Source of the DNA: a virus
Length of the DNA stretch: 47,413 nucleotides
Strand: one strand, 5' to 3'
IMG/VR virus record: IMGVR_UViG_3300007504_000952
Location: 1-47,413 of that record
A program made the translations under genes and the position numbers. Shown in pieces: positions 11,119 to 37,731 of the stretch (position 1 is the first letter of the stretch; every line of letters starts with the position of its first letter). The notes beneath the pieces are model-generated. The model did not search any database and was not told the DNA's origin. It saw only the letters and a list, made by a program, of their open reading frames with translations.

Positions 11119-11775
11119 ATGAGCCTACAAATCGAGCGCGTCGAGCTGTCGACGCTGATCGCAGACCCGGCGAACCCGCGCACACACGACGAGCGAAACC
11201 TGCGCACGATCTGCGCGAGTCTGCGCGAACACGGACAGGTGGAGCCGCTGATCGTGCAGCGCTCGACGCGCATGATCATCGCCGGCAACGGTCGGCGCGA
11301 AGCGATGCGCAGACTCGGATGGATGAGCGCGGACGCGGCGCTGCTCGACGTGACCGATCAGCAGGCGCGCAAGCTGTCGATCACGCTGAATCGTTCCGCA
11401 GAGCTGGCGGGCTGGGACGATGCAGTGCTGGCTCGGCACCTGCGGGATCTGTCGCTCGTGCTCTCTGAGTCGACGGGCGACTGGTCCGAATCGCTCGGCT
11501 TCGATGGCGACGAGCTGTCGACACTGATCGATCAGCTCGACGCGACGCCGGCCCCAGATCCTGATCCGGCGGAGGAACCCGGCCCGGCAGCCAGCGGCGC
11601 GAATCTGCCCGATGCGAAAGCTCAGCGCGTGGAGCTGTATCTGAGCGCAGAGCAGATCGCCGGGTTCAAGTCGAACACCGCGAAGCTGGCCGCGCACTAC
11701 GGAACGGACAACACGACAGACACGGTCTGTCGGGCGATCAATCATGCCGCCGAACGGGCCGCATCTGACGGCTGA
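11119..11775 (+). CDS. ParB-like (Srx-fold) protein
   Basis: 218 residues. The N-terminal 100 residues carry the ParB/Srx signature: PANPRTHDERN, SLREHGQVEPLIVQ, and IIAGNGRREAMRRLG. The second half is helical, ending in a segment that resembles a small DNA-binding tail. Phage proteins of this type are usually not partition factors: they accompany DNA methyltransferases or modification enzymes, or act as nucleases. A second ParB-like gene occurs at 34302 with little similarity outside the motif. Its neighbours here are small unknown genes, so the role cannot be fixed from context. Confidence 0.85.
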   Translation: MSLQIERVELSTLIADPANPRTHDERNLRTICASLREHGQVEPLIVQRSTRMIIAGNGRREAMRRLGWMSADAALLDVTDQQARKLSITLNRSAELAGWDDAVLARHLRDLSLVLSESTGDWSESLGFDGDELSTLIDQLDATPAPDPDPAEEPGPAASGANLPDAKAQRVELYLSAEQIAGFKSNTAKLAAHYGTDNTTDTVCRAINHAAERAASDG

Positions 11776-20294: not shown

Positions 20295-20872
20295 CCGGGT
20301 GGTTCCGAATGTCGGCGAATCCCGACACAGCGGGATCGCAGACTGTGCGAAGCACGGCGGCCGACGCTATGTGTGCTCACACAAGCGAGCGCCGGCCTGC
20401 GGCGCAGGGGGCGAGTATGCGAGCGCCGAGACTGCGGAACGCCGCACAAGCCGAGATCATGAACCGCGCCGCGGTACCGCTGCTGCGGCGACTCGGCGAC
20501 GACTGGCGCTGGCGCAGCGTCAAGACGGGTCGCGCGGTTCGCGTCGGGCTGCCCGATGACTCGGGGCGGCTGCGCGTCTGGTGCGACATCGATCGGCGCG
20601 CAATCGGCAGCGCCGGCGGTCTTGCGACTGCTGCGATCGCGTCGACGCTGCGGCTCGAAGCGGGTCGGCTGTTCGCGCTCGGCGACAGCGGGCAGCTCGG
20701 CGTCGATCTGTGGCTGACTCGCGACGCCGAGAGCGGCGAGATCGAGCGGGTCGCCGCACACGCTTACCCGGCGTCGCCGGGCCGCAAGACGCCGCAACGG
20801 TGCCCGCCCGACGCCCGGGTGGCGACCGTCGGCCCGGCGGGCGTCGCCGTCTGTGCGGTGTCCGAGCTATGA
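20291..20872 (+). CDS. Unknown protein, 193 residues
   Basis: ATGA overlap with the zinc-ribbon gene. The first 55 residues look disordered; an internal ATG at about residue 43 is a possible alternative start. The core is beta-rich (RWRSVKTGRAVRVGLPDDSG; LFALGDSGQLGVDLWLTRDA) and ends in a cysteine-bearing segment. It overlaps the methyltransferase start by four bases and may be functionally linked, but I do not recognise it. Confidence 0.6.
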   Translation: MTGWFRMSANPDTAGSQTVRSTAADAMCAHTSERRPAAQGASMRAPRLRNAAQAEIMNRAAVPLLRRLGDDWRWRSVKTGRAVRVGLPDDSGRLRVWCDIDRRAIGSAGGLATAAIASTLRLEAGRLFALGDSGQLGVDLWLTRDAESGEIERVAAHAYPASPGRKTPQRCPPDARVATVGPAGVAVCAVSEL

Positions 20873-22107
20873 GCGTTCGAGTCATCGAGGGCGACTGCGT
20901 CGCGCTGATGTCGGGCTGGCGGTCGAACACGATTAGCGCGATCGTGTGCGATCCGCCGTACGGGATCGCGTTCATGGGGCGCGCGTTCGATAGGCTCGGG
21001 GACGGCGCGAATCAGCAGCGATGGCACGCGGATTGGCTGCGCGAAGCGCTGCGCGTGCTGCGGCCCGGCGGGCACTTGTGCGCGTTCGGTGGAACGCGCA
21101 CGTTCCACCGGCTCGTGTCTGCGGCCGAGGATGTCGGGTTCGAGATCCGAGATATGCTCGTGTGGCTGTATGGGTCGGGATTCCCGAAGTCGCACAACGT
21201 GGCAAAAGCGTTTGACCGCGCCGCCGGCGAGCTGCGCGCAGAGTCGCGCGCATTCACGGTCGCTGGCGTGCCGCCCGGCTCGAACGTGTCGCCGGTCGTG
21301 CCGATTCGCGGCTATGTGCCGCCCGCGCCGATCACCGATGACGCAAAGCGGTGGCAGGGTTGGGGAACGGCGCTAAAGCCGGCGCACGAGCCGATTCTGC
21401 TCGCGCGCAAGCCGCTGGGCGGAACGGTCGCCGAGTCTGTGCGCAGACACGGCACCGGCGCTCTAAACGTCGCGGCGTGCAGAGTGCCGACAGCTGACGG
21501 CGAGCCCGGCTCGCGCTGGCCGGCGAATCTGCTGCTGAGTCATGCCGCGGCCTGTGCTGTAGACTGCGCGCCGCGCTGCCCGGTGGCAGCGCTCGACGCA
21601 CAGAGCGGCGAGAGCGGATCGCCCGGCGGCGTTCGGGTGCGCTCGGGCGCGTCGGATCTGGGGCGTCGCGCTGGCTGGAACCCACACGCACAGACGCAGA
21701 CGGTCGCCGTGCGGCCCGCAGACCGCGGCGGCGCGTCGCGATTCTTCACGCGAGCGCCGCTCGTGCCGCTCGACGACCCGTCGATCTGGCCGACGTTCCG
21801 GTATACGTCGAAAGCGTCGAAAAGCGAACGTCAAGCCGGCTGTGAACAGCTCGCGCAGACACGCGGCCGCAAGCGCGGCAACAATCACCCGACGGTCAAG
21901 CCGATCGCGATCATGCGCTGGCTGCTGCAGCTCGTGACGCCACCCGGCGGGCTCGTCGTCGACCCGTTCGCCGGGTCGGGCACGACCGGCGTAGCCGCGG
22001 CACAGCTCGGGATAAATGCGTGGCTGATCGAGGCAGATCCGGCGTACGTCGAGATCGCACGAGCACGAGTCGAGCACGCACAGAGCGGGGCGGCCGATGT
22101 TCGCTGA
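20869..22107 (+). CDS. DNA methyltransferase, N6-adenine/N4-cytosine, beta class
   Basis: 412 residues. The catalytic DPPY (28-31, CDPPYGIAFMG) comes early and the AdoMet-binding FAGSG (367-371) near the end, the beta-class order. NNHPTVKPIAIMRWLLQL just before motif I is also typical. The roughly 230-residue middle is the target-recognition region. It would methylate an amino group in phage DNA, likely to resist host restriction. The start overlaps the previous gene. No cognate nuclease is nearby, so it looks like an orphan methyltransferase. Confidence 0.93.
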   Translation: MSVRVIEGDCVALMSGWRSNTISAIVCDPPYGIAFMGRAFDRLGDGANQQRWHADWLREALRVLRPGGHLCAFGGTRTFHRLVSAAEDVGFEIRDMLVWLYGSGFPKSHNVAKAFDRAAGELRAESRAFTVAGVPPGSNVSPVVPIRGYVPPAPITDDAKRWQGWGTALKPAHEPILLARKPLGGTVAESVRRHGTGALNVAACRVPTADGEPGSRWPANLLLSHAAACAVDCAPRCPVAALDAQSGESGSPGGVRVRSGASDLGRRAGWNPHAQTQTVAVRPADRGGASRFFTRAPLVPLDDPSIWPTFRYTSKASKSERQAGCEQLAQTRGRKRGNNHPTVKPIAIMRWLLQLVTPPGGLVVDPFAGSGTTGVAAAQLGINAWLIEADPAYVEIARARVEHAQSGAADVR

Positions 22108-25821: not shown

Positions 25822-27480
25822 GTGTGGAAGGGAACGGCCCTCTCTACGAGGCCGGTGCGCCGAACTGGTAGCGGGGTCTTTGAGGGAGGTGCTTCCCCGA
25901 TCTCCTGTTTCGGGACCGGGGGAGACCTCGACATAAGCGCATTCTGGGCGCTTCGAGTCTCGGGGGGGCGCGCGGTGGTAGATCAAGGGCCGCGACTTGG
26001 GGTAGGGTGGGCTCTGCGGGAGGATGAAGTTGAAAGTAGTTGACTTGTTCTGTGGTGCTGGTGGGCTGTCTGAGGGCATGAGGATGGCTGGTTGTCAAGT
26101 GATTGGTGGAGTTGATTGCGACCCCGATGCAATGGCCACGTTCGCGTTGAATTTCCCCGATGCACTCGCGGTAACTGGTGACATCAGGAATGACGCTGTG
26201 TTCTCGAAAGTCGCGCGAGCAGCTGGCGAGGCCGATGTTCTTGTCGGCGGGCCGCCTTGCCAGGCTTTTTCTCAGGTTCGCAACCACTCTCGTATTATTG
26301 ATGACCCGCGCAACGGCCTCTATCGCGAGTTCGTGCGGGCGATCGAGCGTTTTCGCCCTCTCGGCTTCGTCATGGAGAATGTCCCTGGAATGGACCAAAT
26401 GGGGGTTCGTTCTCAGGTGTTGACCGATCTGTCCCTCAGGGGGCGCTACGTTGTGCAGAGTCGGGTCGTGGATGCCGTAGATTTTGGCGTTCCCCAGACG
26501 CGGAAGCGGATCGTATTTGTGGGGGTGCGTGCTGATCGAACTGAGAGGTTTCGATTTCCATATGGCTCTGGAGCCTCAGGAATGTTGCGACTGGAGCGTC
26601 GAGAAGACTCTCGGGGAGTGTCTTACAACATAGACTCCCCTTCGGTGCCGATCACAGGCGAGGATCCTGTTGGTCGGCTGAATGACCCGACAGATCTCTG
26701 GGCGGTGTCAGTAGAACAGGCAATCGGTGACTTGGCGTGGCTTGTTGCTGGTCGCCGTGATGACCGTATTGATGCGGCGTCCCTTCCTGCGCCCTCCTCG
26801 CGCTATCAGGAGGCGATGAGGATGGATAGGGAAGAAGAACAATTGAGGAACGTGCAAGTGCCACGCATTAACAGGGATACCGTTCTCCGGTTGAATGGTG
26901 TCCCGGAGGGCGGGAACTACCGAGACCTGTCCGAGAACCTACGCCAGCGGTATCTTACAGGGCAGAAATGGGGGCCTTCGAACGGGAGTGGCAGGTTAGG
27001 CCGGAAACACTACTACGCCTATCGTCGCCTCCATCGCGCATTTTGGGCTTGGACTCTCAATACCAAGGCGGATAGTGCTTATCACTACGCTTCGCCACGT
27101 GCTCTTTCAGTGCGGGAGTTTGCGAGGTTGCAGTCCTTTCCTGACGGCTTTTCGTTCACGACCGACCCCCGAAAGGGCAAACTGGACGGCCGTATCCCCG
27201 GTGGGCCGGCGCATTCTCGCTATCGACAGGTGGGCAATGCTGTCCCGCCCCTGCTCGCTACGGCCATTGCGCGGTCCTTGCGGGAGGTTCTTCTGGGGCA
27301 ATCGAACGATGAATTGGAGTATGGGAATGCCACCCGAAGGACAGGTTGATCGGCCATTTGGGGCTGAAAATCGTGAAGCACTGTTGAACGAGTTCTTCCA
27401 TGGGTGGGGGACTGTTACGAGGCAAAACGCTTGGAAGGCAGTCTATCAACTGCTGATGTGGGTTGATCCCACGACAGGGC
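25822..27480. mobile_element. Lower-GC restriction-modification cassette, boundaries approximate
   Basis: Base composition and codon use drop sharply between roughly 25780 and 27480: codons such as GTT, TTG, GGT and CGT appear and the GAGTCTGC/GCAGACTC octamer vanishes. The stretch holds a complete C5 methyltransferase and the start of a partner gene that runs in frame into typical phage sequence at about 27480. No inverted repeats, transposase or target duplication are visible, so capture by recombination is more likely than transposition. The 200 bases before the methyltransferase carry no clear gene. Confidence 0.6.
26024..27349 (+). CDS. DNA (cytosine-5) methyltransferase
   Basis: 441 residues with all key motifs: VVDLFCGAGGLSEG (I), GGPPCQAFSQ with catalytic C79 (IV), MENVPG (VI), QTRKRIVFVG (VIII), REFARLQSFPDGF (IX) and RQVGNAVPP (X), with a target-recognition region between VIII and IX. 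It transfers a methyl group to C5 of cytosine at a specific site. GGGAGG directly abuts this ATG; a TTG at 26030 would have ideal 6-base spacing and give the usual MKVVDLF start, so the true start may be the TTG. Composition marks it as acquired. The next gene overlaps its end. Confidence 0.95.
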   Translation: MKLKVVDLFCGAGGLSEGMRMAGCQVIGGVDCDPDAMATFALNFPDALAVTGDIRNDAVFSKVARAAGEADVLVGGPPCQAFSQVRNHSRIIDDPRNGLYREFVRAIERFRPLGFVMENVPGMDQMGVRSQVLTDLSLRGRYVVQSRVVDAVDFGVPQTRKRIVFVGVRADRTERFRFPYGSGASGMLRLERREDSRGVSYNIDSPSVPITGEDPVGRLNDPTDLWAVSVEQAIGDLAWLVAGRRDDRIDAASLPAPSSRYQEAMRMDREEEQLRNVQVPRINRDTVLRLNGVPEGGNYRDLSENLRQRYLTGQKWGPSNGSGRLGRKHYYAYRRLHRAFWAWTLNTKADSAYHYASPRALSVREFARLQSFPDGFSFTTDPRKGKLDGRIPGGPAHSRYRQVGNAVPPLLATAIARSLREVLLGQSNDELEYGNATRRTG

Positions 27481-33968: not shown

Positions 33969-34305
33969 TCTGTTCCGCCCGCCGGGCGCAATTGTCGAGC
34001 ACGGCTCGGCCGCTGGCCCGCGCGCGGGCCTTGACGCAAAGATCGGCGAGAACACGATCGGCGGCCCGCTGTCTGGGCAGGACGTGCGAATGCTGCTCGA
34101 TCGCAAGACTCTGCAGCAGCTGCTCGACATCGCGTCGCAGTCGCTGTCGGGCCGCGTGCAGCTCGACGGCGTCGGCTTTCGGCAGCGCGTGTGGCGGTCG
34201 GGGAACGGTCACGTCTACCAGACGCTGACTCTGATCAGTCTGCAGCCACGGCCCGAGCGAACGCCCGTGGACGGCGCAGTGTCTGCGACCCGGCGGCGGC
34301 GATGA
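33961..34305 (+). CDS. Unknown protein, 114 residues
   Basis: Starts eight bases inside the previous gene. Sequence LFRPPGAIVEHGSAAGPRAG, then GPLSGQDVRMLLDRKTLQQL and a beta-like VQLDGVGFRQRVWRSGNGHV with a basic tail. It may belong with the ParB/ABC-GNAT pair that follows or with packaging. No family recognised. Confidence 0.6.
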   Translation: MADLFRPPGAIVEHGSAAGPRAGLDAKIGENTIGGPLSGQDVRMLLDRKTLQQLLDIASQSLSGRVQLDGVGFRQRVWRSGNGHVYQTLTLISLQPRPERTPVDGAVSATRRRR

Positions 34306-34868
34306 CTCGGCAGCGCGAAGCCGCCGCCGTCTATGTTCACCCGGACGAGCTACGCCCGTGGGAGGACAACCCGCGGATCAACGATGACGCCGTCGAGCCG
34401 GTCGCGCAGAGCATCGCCCAATTCGGGTTCGCGTCGCCGATCGTCGCCCGCACAGACGGAACGATCATCGCCGGTCACACGCGCTGGACGGCGGCGCGCC
34501 GCCTCGGGCTTGAGCGGGTGCCTGTTCGATTCATGGATCTGACGGACGCGCAGTTCCGGGCGCTCGCTCTCGCCGACAACAAACTTGGCGAGATTGCCGA
34601 GTGGGACGGCGATCTGCTGGAGGAAACATTCGTAGCTCTGCGCGACTGCGATGCAGAGCTGATCGCGGCGACCGGCTGGGAAGACGAGATGGGCGAGTAT
34701 CTGCGCGCGCTGGATGGGCAGATCGACGATCCCGGCGAGTCTGCGTCGGGCGGCGGCGCGAGTCTGCAATTCCGAGTGCTCGTCGAGGTCGACAGCGAGT
34801 CTGCACAAAGCGCGATGATTCAGAGACTCGAATCCGAGGGATTCAAGTGCCAACCGTTAATGTCGTAG
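34302..34868 (+). CDS. ParB-like (Srx-fold) protein next to the Mom-like gene
   Basis: 188 residues, ATGA overlap. A clear ParB/Srx domain: PDELRPWEDNPRINDDAVEP, SIAQFGFASPIVARTDGTII, AGHTRWTAARRLGLERVPVR, then ADNKLGEIAEWDGDLLEETF. The C-terminal 40 residues are predicted to fold separately (FRVLVEVDSESAQSAMIQRL), resembling an RRM-like strand-helix unit seen after ParB in some phage proteins. It overlaps the ABC-GNAT gene by 22 bases, a strong sign of joint function. ParB-like proteins often accompany DNA-modifying enzymes in phages, possibly as NTP-dependent or sequence-recognition partners. Confidence 0.88.
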   Translation: MTRQREAAAVYVHPDELRPWEDNPRINDDAVEPVAQSIAQFGFASPIVARTDGTIIAGHTRWTAARRLGLERVPVRFMDLTDAQFRALALADNKLGEIAEWDGDLLEETFVALRDCDAELIAATGWEDEMGEYLRALDGQIDDPGESASGGGASLQFRVLVEVDSESAQSAMIQRLESEGFKCQPLMS

Positions 34869-36064
34869 TCTCTACGCCCCTGTCCGAGAGTATGCGCGCG
34901 CGTCAGGTGTGCAGTATGTTCGACGTTCCGCCGGCGGAAAAGTGCGAGCGCTCGTGGTCGGGCGATGTTCCGCTCGCCGAGCGGGACTGGAGCGTCGGCC
35001 TGATCGTCGGACCCAGCGGCTCTGGAAAGAGCACAATCATGCGCGATCTGTTTGGCGAGCCGGCCGAGCTTAGCTGGAGCGCGCCGAGCGTCGTGGACGA
35101 CTTTGCGCCGTCTCTCGATGTCGAGACAATCACGAAAGCGTGCAGCGCCGTCGGGTTCAACACGATCCCGGCGTGGTTGCGCCCGTTCCACGTTCTGTCG
35201 AACGGCGAGCGGTTCCGCGTCGAGCTTGCCCGCAGACTCTGCGAGTCTGCAGATCCCGTCGTCGTCGACGAGTTTACGAGCGTGGTAGATCGGCAAGTCG
35301 CCAAGATCGGATCGCACGCCGTGCAGAAGTGGGCGCGCAGAAACGGCCGGCGGTTCGTCGCCGTGACCTGTCACTATGACGTGGTGGACTGGCTCAGGCC
35401 CGATTGGGTACTGGAGCCAGAGACAATGTCCTTTAGCTGGAGGTCGGTTCAACCCCGACCACGATTCGACGTTGGGATCGCCCGAGTGGATCGTGCCGAG
35501 TGGGCGCGGTTTGCACCGTTTCACTATCTGACCTCGACGCTCCCATATGGGGAGTATTACGGCGTTTTCGTTGACGGCGTAGCCCGTCCGGTCGGCTTCA
35601 CGGGGATCGCAATCTTCCCGCACTGGTCAGCGAAGGATCTGATCCGAATGACCCGGACGGTAGTGTTGCCCGACTGGCAGGGGCTCGGGCTTTCGTTTGT
35701 GCTGAATGATGCGCTCGGCGCAGCCTACAAGGCGTTCGGGTGGCGGTTTCGCGACTACCCGGCACACCCGGGATATGTGGCGGCCTGCATGAGAAGCCCG
35801 CACTGGCGGTTGATTTCGAGTGCAGAGTCTTCGCTGAAGAATGCGCCGAACAAGAACGCGAAGGCGCGCAGATACAGAGAGGGAGAGGGCGAGTCGGGAT
35901 CAAGCGACTTTGGCGGCCGCCCGTGTGCAGTGTTCGAGTATTGCGGCCCGACGATGTCGCGAGGGCTGGCCGAGCGATTCATCGTCACGCCCGGCGGCAA
36001 ACAGCGCCCGCCGCGAGTCAACGTCACGCGCAAGCGAAACCGGGTCAGACGGAGGAAGCGATGA
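34847..36064 (+). CDS. ABC-type ATPase fused to GNAT/Mom-like acyltransferase
   Basis: 405 residues from GTG 34847, chosen because GAGGG lies seven bases upstream; an ATG at 34892 has no good ribosome site. The N-terminal ABC ATPase has Walker A GPSGSGKST (55-63), signature-like LSNGER (117-122), Walker B VVVDE (138-142) and H176 in TCHYDVVDWL. The second half is GNAT-like: FHYLTSTLPYGEYYGVFVDG, then RTVVLPDWQGLGLS, whose Q-x-x-G-x acyl-CoA loop is intact. Mom of phage Mu, a GNAT-fold enzyme, makes a carbamoylmethyl adenine that blocks restriction. An energy-dependent DNA modifier is the best hypothesis; no membrane segments, so not a transporter. Confidence 0.75.
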   Translation: MPTVNVVVSTPLSESMRARQVCSMFDVPPAEKCERSWSGDVPLAERDWSVGLIVGPSGSGKSTIMRDLFGEPAELSWSAPSVVDDFAPSLDVETITKACSAVGFNTIPAWLRPFHVLSNGERFRVELARRLCESADPVVVDEFTSVVDRQVAKIGSHAVQKWARRNGRRFVAVTCHYDVVDWLRPDWVLEPETMSFSWRSVQPRPRFDVGIARVDRAEWARFAPFHYLTSTLPYGEYYGVFVDGVARPVGFTGIAIFPHWSAKDLIRMTRTVVLPDWQGLGLSFVLNDALGAAYKAFGWRFRDYPAHPGYVAACMRSPHWRLISSAESSLKNAPNKNAKARRYREGEGESGSSDFGGRPCAVFEYCGPTMSRGLAERFIVTPGGKQRPPRVNVTRKRNRVRRRKR

Positions 36065-37731
36065 ATCTGGACAAACAGGCGGCCCCCACGTCCAGCATTG
36101 TGCGCAGACTCGCCGAGGAATACCCGCTGCTCGGCCTTTCGCTGATGCACCATCGCAATACGCGCGGTCAGCCCATGTCGTTCAAGAACCGGCCGTATCT
36201 GATCGAGCTGTATACGGACGGGCCAAAGATCGACGGATTCGACGCGATGAAGTGCGTTCAGGTCGGCTGGTCCGAGTATCTGATTCAGCTCGTTCTGGAG
36301 CGGGCCGGCTGGGCCGGGCGAATCTGCGGCTACGTGCTGCCGAGCTATCAGCTGCGGGATCGGTTTGTTCGACGCCGTGTCGTGTCGCTGCTCGGCGGCG
36401 ATGACAAGATGACCGTCCCGGCATACCGCGCGCTGGTTCCGTCCGACGATCCCGGCAGTCTGCGCCATAAACGATTCGGCCGCGGCGCTCTGTTGTTCCT
36501 CGGCTCGAACGCCGTTAACGATTTCATCGAGTTTAGCGCGGACGTGCTGGTTGTCGACGAGTATGATCGCTGCGACCAGACGAATCTTTCGTTTGCCCGC
36601 GACCGACTGCGCGCCAGCGATAGCCCGCAGCTGTTCAGAGTCAGCAACCCGACGATCCCGGGCCGCGGCATTAGCGAGCTGTTCGACATCAGCGACGGCC
36701 GCGAGTGGTTCCACCGCTGCAGCCGCTGCGGCGAGCGGCAGCAGATCGACTGGTTCCTGCACATAGTCGACCGGGACGACGCTGGGCGCTGGGTTCTGCG
36801 TGACTCTGCGCGCTCAGACCACGGAACGGTTCGGCCCGTGTGTCTGCGCTGCGGACGCCCGTGGGACCGCAGAGATGGCGGTGGGCAGTGGGTGCAGACA
36901 CGGCCAGATCGGCCACGCCGCGGCTATCACGTCTGCAGAATGGACGTGCTGAGCGAGAACCTGCGCGATCTGTTCGACGAGTGGATCGAAGCTCAGGGCA
37001 ACCCGGACAAGATGACTGCATTTTATGCCGGTGTGCTCGGCCTGCCGTACGCCCCAGCGGGCAGCAGCGTGTCGACAGATCTGCTGCATCGTGCAGCTAC
37101 CGCGCCGCCTACAGACCACGCCGGCGGTGAACACTTGCGACGCTGTCAGGTCGTCGCCGGGATCGATGTCGGAAACGTGCTGAACGTGGACATTTGCGTA
37201 TCAGAGATCGACGAGACAACGCTGCGCAGAAAGCGTCGCGGAATCTGGACAGGAGAGGTGTCGTCATTCAACGATATCTATGACATGCTCGTCCGCTACT
37301 GCGTGGACGTTGCGGTGATCGACGCTCGGCCCGAGGCGCGAAAGTCGCAGGAGCTGCGCGACCGCGCGATCGCGTCGGGCGTGTCCGACGTGTGGCTCTG
37401 TGAGTTTCACAAAACGCCGCGAGTCAGCGCGCAAGATTTCGGAATGATGCAGGACTGGAACCGCCACGTCGTGCGTGTCGACAGAACGCAGCTACTGGAC
37501 GCGACGCTCGCAGACATTCAGCACGACCCGCCGTCGCGAACGTGGCCCGAGGACGTTTGGCAGAGTCGCGGCTGGTCGCAACAGATGACCGCGCCGAAGC
37601 GTGTATCGAACCGAAACGGCGACGGGTTCATATGGGATAGCGGACGGTCTGCTGATCACTACAGATTCAGCGACGCATACTCGCGCGTGGCCGAGTCGCT
37701 GCTGGACATGCAGGGGAGCTATCATGACTGA
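36061..37731 (+). CDS. Terminase large subunit, GpA-like
   Basis: 556 residues, ATGA overlap. ATPase half: MKCVQVGWSEYLIQLV in the position of the atypical GpA P-loop, PSYQLRDRFVRRRV, and Walker B VLVVDEYDRC with D166/E167, then SNPTIPGRGI. Two CxxC knuckles (CSRCGERQ and CLRCGRP) form the zinc ribbon usual in GpA. The nuclease half has GIDVGNVLNVDICVSEID, AVIDARPE and a late DSGRSADHYRFSDAYSR with candidate acidic residues. It cuts and pumps concatemeric DNA into proheads. Confidence 0.92.
   Translation: MNLDKQAAPTSSIVRRLAEEYPLLGLSLMHHRNTRGQPMSFKNRPYLIELYTDGPKIDGFDAMKCVQVGWSEYLIQLVLERAGWAGRICGYVLPSYQLRDRFVRRRVVSLLGGDDKMTVPAYRALVPSDDPGSLRHKRFGRGALLFLGSNAVNDFIEFSADVLVVDEYDRCDQTNLSFARDRLRASDSPQLFRVSNPTIPGRGISELFDISDGREWFHRCSRCGERQQIDWFLHIVDRDDAGRWVLRDSARSDHGTVRPVCLRCGRPWDRRDGGGQWVQTRPDRPRRGYHVCRMDVLSENLRDLFDEWIEAQGNPDKMTAFYAGVLGLPYAPAGSSVSTDLLHRAATAPPTDHAGGEHLRRCQVVAGIDVGNVLNVDICVSEIDETTLRRKRRGIWTGEVSSFNDIYDMLVRYCVDVAVIDARPEARKSQELRDRAIASGVSDVWLCEFHKTPRVSAQDFGMMQDWNRHVVRVDRTQLLDATLADIQHDPPSRTWPEDVWQSRGWSQQMTAPKRVSNRNGDGFIWDSGRSADHYRFSDAYSRVAESLLDMQGSYHD

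Follow-up and report, generated by a model that had tools for sequence, protein, structure and literature searches.

What reaction might be carried out by an ABC ATPase that is fused to a GNAT-type acyltransferase domain, preceded by a ParB-like gene and followed by a phage terminase? The pair lies in the window analysed here, a 47,413-nucleotide stretch of viral DNA (IMG/VR record IMGVR_UViG_3300007504_000952, positions 1 to 47,413). A preliminary description had proposed that the two proteins form a DNA-modification machine comparable to that of Mu Mom, in which the ATPase powers clamping or scanning of DNA and the ParB-like protein guides it.

The gene pair and the domains of the fusion

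The ParB-like open reading frame (34302–34868, plus strand) encodes 188 amino acids and the fusion (34847–36064, plus strand) encodes 405, from a GTG start. The coordinates of the two frames agree with the overlap of exactly 22 bp that had been described, and the fusion does stand directly before the large terminase, its stop and the terminase start at 36061 overlapping by 4 bp. The features of the locus are as follows.

34302–34868, plus strand: ParB-like gene, a ParB_N fold followed by a C-terminal partner domain (Pfam ParB_N, E 2.6e-10; phrog_620, E 5e-40)
34347–34580, plus strand: ParB_N domain, residues 16–93, with a G58-H-x-R61 box (G58 in 77/77 and R61 in 58/77 relatives)
34764–34865, plus strand: C-terminal domain of the ParB-like protein, about 35 residues, residues 155–188 (sequence conservation among relatives)
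34847–36064, plus strand: ABC-ATPase/GNAT fusion gene, 405 amino acids (phrog_11143, E 8e-89; 75-member alignment)
34847–35443, plus strand: ABC ATPase domain, residues 1–199 (ABC_tran, E 2e-7; model pLDDT 87)
35009–35035, plus strand: Walker A, residues 55–63 (G55, S57, G58, G60 and K61 in 75/75)
35195–35212, plus strand: ABC signature LSNGER, residues 117–122 (L117, S118, G120 and E121 in 75/75)
35267–35272, plus strand: end of Walker B, D141-E142, with the catalytic Glu (75/75)
35372–35374, plus strand: H-loop, H176 (75/75)
35444–36061, plus strand: GNAT domain, residues 200–405, with a basic tail (AF2 pLDDT 83; RimI 5isv, Z 12.5)
35522–35530, plus strand: family motif H226-Y227-L228 (H226 and Y227 in 75/75)
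35654–35689, plus strand: GNAT motif A (CoA loop), R270-T-V-V-L-P-D-W-Q-G-L-G281 (R270, V272, P275, G279 and G281 invariant in 37 diverse members)
36061–37731, plus strand: terminase large subunit, neighbour (GpA_ATPase, E 5e-18; phrog_675, E 3e-66)

Elsewhere the window encodes a second ParB_N protein (11119–11775), an N6_N4 DNA methylase (20581–22107, E 1e-32) and a C5 DNA methylase (26024–27349, E 7e-54), and within its virion-structural region 44097–45617 matches phrog_540, 'nucleotide-sugar epimerase' (E 1.5e-65).

The fusion matched a phage family with no assigned function, phrog_11143, over its full length (residues 7–368); in Pfam it matched ABC_tran, and a match to Acetyltransf_1 (E 0.014) fell under the cut-off. 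When 75 full-length homologues, 49–60% identical to the window fusion, were aligned, the ABC motifs reported as intact were found at the positions given for them and were invariant or nearly so, as was Asp148, which did not vary. In the region of the Q-loop we observed a conserved D84-D85-F86 and identified no Q-loop glutamine. An AlphaFold model of the fusion had a mean pLDDT of 87, and structure comparison showed that residues 1–204 adopt the fold of a transporter nucleotide-binding domain (best Z 15.0, rmsd 2.7, 175 residues aligned). With Walker A, signature, Walker B Glu, H-loop and ABC fold all present, the protein belongs to the ABC superfamily. As described earlier, it lacks a membrane segment, the maximum 19-residue Kyte-Doolittle value being 1.36. 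We considered the possibility of an ABC transporter and rejected it, as there was neither a transmembrane segment nor an adjacent permease, the neighbours being the ParB-like gene and the terminase. Because the ABC catalytic residues are invariant while membrane segment and neighbouring permease are both missing, we concluded that the fusion is not a transporter.

The C-terminal half belongs to the GNAT superfamily, since it has both the fold and the motif A pattern R/Q-x-x-G-x-G. The limits given earlier for the acyl-CoA loop (residues 272–281) were right, and the conserved motif begins at R270. No variation was seen among the 75 homologues at His226, Tyr227 and Arg270 or at the Q-G-x-G loop glycines, and the Tyr of the H226-Y227 motif was invariant even across 37 diverse GNAT domains. 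The extreme C terminus is strongly basic, with 13 Lys or Arg in the last 30 residues. Modelled alone, the GNAT domain was closest to RimI/Naa protein acetyltransferases, with RimI (5isv) aligned over 129 residues at an rmsd of 3.2. Taken literally, this is one of the outcomes that the preliminary description had named as refuting its proposal, though the GNAT fold is generic.

The proposed kinship with Mu Mom was not supported at the family level. Profile comparisons, first against 8 Mom sequences and later against about 88, gave no significant match (hhalign probabilities of 2.8% and 7.9%), the Mom motifs ELxR, SxAD and GxxYQAxNF were absent from the GNAT half, and we therefore rejected membership in the Mom family. 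The solved Mom structure, 8bv8, was not among the 50 matches listed when the GNAT domain was searched against the PDB, and a viral Mom model was matched in a structure search with E 1.2e-3. Of the HYS motif of Mom, the His-Tyr pair alone is common to both proteins, which is only suggestive.

Linkage, split forms and the partner protein

The search for relatives of the fusion identified 79 phage records in GenBank, 207 stretches of viral contigs and 296 bacterial-genome stretches that encode one, and the gene pair recurs across hundreds of phages unrelated to one another. The linkage of ParB-like and ABC-GNAT genes, which the preliminary description had proposed to check, proved very strongly conserved: the partner lay immediately upstream in 143 of 175 phage, viral-contig and prophage loci (80/95 phage or viral and 63/80 bacterial-genome loci). 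The exact 22-bp overlap recurred in 52 of the 95 phage or viral loci, and in ten more of these the partner was a few kb upstream; in bacterial genomes it was within 300 bp in 57 of 80 loci, and in six more the match was to its C-terminal domain only. By comparison, a ParB_N gene was nearby in only 4 of 80 Mom loci. A ParB_N gene without the C-terminal domain also abuts a Mom-like gene in Microbacterium phage Appa.

L130, 2469–3621: ParB_N gene overlapping a Mom-like gene by 8 bp

Large-terminase or portal genes were recurrent neighbours of the fusion, and the bacterial copies examined therefore look like prophages. For the same reason we do not favour a chromosomal housekeeping role in Planctomycetes, where inspection showed recurring terminase-, portal- and lysis-like clusters indicative of prophages. 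The terminase families beside the fusion varied (TerL_ATPase, Terminase_6N and GpA), and no terminase adjoined the fusion at the T4-like (PX29), Mu-like or pT24 loci that we examined. That the pair acts just before packaging, as had been suggested, may be inferred from gene order only.

Nine phages, seven of them streptococcal, lactococcal or oenococcal and the others one from Enterococcus and one from Thomasclavelia, have the GNAT half in the −1 frame relative to the ABC half, the two frames overlapping by 97–136 nt.

L083, 6576–6678: frame overlap
L087, 3576–3678: frame overlap
L088, 3579–3681: frame overlap
L297, L298 and L299, 2076–2178: frame overlap
L086, 3561–3666: frame overlap
L089, 3423–3558: frame overlap
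L090, 3450–3546: frame overlap

A candidate slippery site, GGTTTTTC, as in Lactococcus P335, was conserved in six of these phages, with A AAA AAG in L089. Within the six 103-nt overlaps, amino-acid differences were fewer in the −1 frame than in the 0 frame for 15/15 pairs (the pairs being non-independent), and the −1 frame contained no ATG, GTG or TTG before the His-Tyr motif. In Javan420, one of the overlapping-frame phages, the −1 frame is interrupted early by a stop. The simplest reading of these sequences is that the ABC and GNAT halves are joined there by candidate programmed −1 frameshifting. The GenBank labels at three of these loci (L083, L086 and L087), 'iron siderophore transporter' or 'ABC-transporter' for the ABC half and 'DNA modification methylase' or 'adenine-specific methyltransferase' for the ParB partner, look wrong.

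The components can also be fully separate. Some 110-kb phages of Klebsiella (GArcari-2022b) and Rhizobium (RHEph10) encode each part on its own, ParB being represented by two genes and ABC by an ABC-only protein; their GNAT-type protein matched the window GNAT half with a profile probability of 94% (E 1e-7), and the motifs W-x(n)-HY and SRxVxxxxxGxG lined up between the two.

The 188-residue partner has the ParB_N domain of canonical ParB, its only Pfam match, and neither a helix-turn-helix nor a ParB C-terminal dimer domain was found in it by Pfam and PHROG profile searches. Its ParB_N belongs to the subfamily that is fused to DNA methyltransferases (ParB part of phrog_498, E 7e-35; PADLOC MTase_II, E 3e-23), and fusions of phage ParB folds with N6_N4 methyltransferases have been described in a large survey (PMC12704722). 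The same survey reported that ParB folds bind several NTPs and that a bacterial ParB-acetyltransferase fusion binds GTP. The C-terminal domain has a consensus near YRVIVDCxDExQQAELLERFxxEGLxCRALIS. Two transposable phages, Pseudomonas Komp_PAO1_1 and Porphyromonas phage008a, have no ParB_N part; instead, an ORF of 42–49 residues consisting of the C-terminal domain alone precedes ABC-GNAT and overlaps it by 4 bp.

L093, 3819–3968: C-domain-only ORF, 49 amino acids, right end of a transposable phage genome
L094, 3840–3968: C-domain-only ORF, 42 amino acids, right end of a transposable phage genome

Since these two phages keep the C-terminal domain and the fusion and drop ParB_N, this arrangement suggests that docking is the task of the C-terminal domain, with ParB_N as an optional part that targets the complex or senses NTPs. 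In both, the cassette lies at the right genome end after the tail genes, the position of com-mom in Mu.

Other genes recur at the fusion. ASCH-domain genes were present at 20 of 95 loci; 13 of these loci have the gene within 200 bp of the fusion 3′ end, mostly convergent with it, and about eleven other prophage loci, most of them from actinobacteria, likewise have an ASCH gene at the fusion. Pfam confirmed ASCH in the two proteins checked. Formyl_trans_N genes directly followed the fusion in Gordonia phage Axumite, where the gene is annotated 'tRNA-methyltransferase', and in the two transposable phages, and two bacterial-genome loci had a formyltransferase-like match beside it. Neither ASCH nor formyltransferase genes were found when looked for in the window.

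L008, 7070–7456; L062, 2878–3285; L141, 6067–6528; and others: ASCH gene convergent with the fusion, often overlapping its 3′ end
L082, 1805–2452; L093, 5077–5694; L094, 5095–5568: Formyl_trans_N gene after ABC-GNAT
L085, 7101–7526: PanD-like aspartate decarboxylase gene directly after ABC-GNAT, Gordonia phage Jace

ASCH/PUA domains have been described as readers of modified bases (PMC12839542). We did not favour an ac4C amidohydrolase eraser, as inspection showed Glu (KxxExR) at the position of the YqfB Thr24 nucleophile, and consider a reader more likely.

Substrate of the proposed module

The reading we prefer, with middling confidence, is that the module uses ATP to acylate DNA bases, with the ParB-type partner as its guide. 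The ABC domain, judged by its intact motifs, would form an ATP sandwich dimer and would drive or gate the fused GNAT domain by means of ATP, and the GNAT domain would move an acyl group from acyl-CoA onto a base amino group in DNA. The ParB-type protein would bind ABC-GNAT through its small C-terminal domain and position it on DNA or gate it by NTP binding, and the product may shield phage DNA against host restriction or serve as a mark on it. ATP coupling, use of CoA, DNA as acceptor, ParB as guide and the antirestriction benefit are all inferred here. The DNA-modification role put forward in the preliminary description is partly supported, without its Mom kinship: ParB_N subfamily, ASCH neighbours and the com-mom-like position point to it. 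We also count in favour of the base-acylation reading the gene linkage, the invariant ABC and GNAT motifs, the ParB_N genes that abut some Mom-like genes, the N4/N6 and C5 DNA methylases of the window and an earlier published prediction of the same kind (PMC7824862). Counted against base acylation are the RimI/Naa-like fold, the lack of a significant Mom relation and the fact that no sequence-specific DNA-binding domain was found in the ParB-like protein or the fusion, as well as the RNA roles of ASCH, the Glu in the ASCH proteins found here and the rarity of formyltransferase and PanD neighbours. A fuller version, which we offer tentatively as possible rather than probable, has an ABC dimer powering DNA-base acylation, a ParB-type NTP switch docked through the adaptor domain, −1 frameshifting setting the ratio of ABC to ABC-GNAT in some phages, and optional formyltransferase tailoring and an ASCH reader, a chemistry that would be distinct from that of methyltransferases and of Mom.

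Because the GNAT fold is generic, acetylation of protein or of RNA is a serious rival. In the former, the target of GNAT would be host RNA polymerase, the terminase or a nucleoid protein, and ABC and ParB would provide NTP-dependent targeting. The structural closeness to RimI/Naa and the terminase that adjoins the fusion in many loci are consistent with it; to our knowledge, however, known protein GNATs need neither an ATPase nor a ParB partner, the RimI/Naa similarity is one generic to the fold, and a conserved terminase target is unlikely because the terminase families beside the fusion differ. The precedent is that phiKMV Rac acetylates RNA polymerase, according to the passages of PMC7824862 that concern it. 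On balance we consider a protein target unlikely. Acylation of RNA, presumably tRNA, would make the fusion an ABC analogue of TmcA/NAT10, in which an ATPase is fused to a cytidine-acetylating GNAT domain. The joining of ATPase and GNAT in one polypeptide and the ASCH neighbours fit this proposal, but the TmcA/NAT10 family GNAT_acetyltr_2 was matched in one member only and under the cut-off (E 0.19), the ParB_N partner belongs with DNA methyltransferases, and the genes are distributed on mobile elements beside packaging genes, all of which makes an RNA substrate quite unlikely.

Polymers or large complexes are the usual targets of ABC sandwich dimers, and no nucleotide-metabolism gene was prominent among the recurrent neighbour clusters. 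Both points speak against action on nucleotides or small molecules, whether to make a modified dNTP before incorporation or as an NTP-depleting effector, which we judge very unlikely even though formyltransferase and PanD genes adjoin the fusion in a few loci and ParB folds, including the GTP-binding acetyltransferase fusion, bind NTPs (PMC12704722). Least likely of the readings weighed here is that the pair regulates segregation or packaging, with ParB and ABC clamping DNA and the GNAT chemistry playing a secondary part. ParB_N together with ABC, and the adjacent terminase, would suit such a role; against it are the lack of a detectable HTH or ParB C-terminal dimer domain, the invariance of the GNAT motif residues, and the two Mu-like phages that lack ParB_N but retain the C-domain and the fusion.

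Should DNA be the substrate, as in the base-acylation reading that we prefer, an uncharacterised hypermodification is present in hundreds of phages and prophages; it could defeat restriction enzymes and would escape notice when amplified DNA is sequenced. The two conserved genes make a small expressible system, with a natural minimal version containing a 42–49-residue partner, in which one can probe directly the chemistry, what ATP does and what a ParB fold does outside partition.

Relation to known systems

A DNA-acylating ABC-GNAT system, naming phage pT24, has already been predicted (Iyer 2013), as restated in the relevant passages of PMC7824862. The pT24 locus is a homologue of the window fusion (tblastn 33%, E 1e-47) with the same domain pair, and the window module is therefore a member of this already predicted system, real and conserved. 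It differs from the pT24 locus, which has no adjacent ParB gene; in its record the pT24 homologue also has an in-frame stop.

L081, 5947–7119: pT24 homologue with an in-frame stop inside the GNAT half

The passages of PMC7824862 on ABC-GNAT mention neither a ParB partner nor ASCH, formyltransferase or frameshifting, and we found in the literature no experimental test of the predicted acylation.

The separate genes of the 110-kb phages encode the same three components as the window module, but as individual genes and with two ParB genes. The ABC ATPases fused to a predicted acetyltransferase in COG2401 are what we take to be a related cellular family. TmcA/NAT10, an RNA cytidine acetyltransferase, likewise combines an ATPase and a GNAT domain in one protein and acts on a base; in contrast, its ATPase is of the RNA-helicase type and its GNAT family is a different one. 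Phage ParB_N-DNA methyltransferase fusions (phrog_498, PADLOC MTase_II) share the ParB_N subfamily of the partner, whereas their catalytic part is a SAM methyltransferase and not ABC-GNAT. Mu Mom resembles the fusion in its GNAT fold and in a His-Tyr pair that falls in register in a weak profile alignment, and a ParB_N gene sometimes adjoins Mom genes; Mom differs in having no ATPase and in catalytic motifs unlike those of ABC-GNAT.
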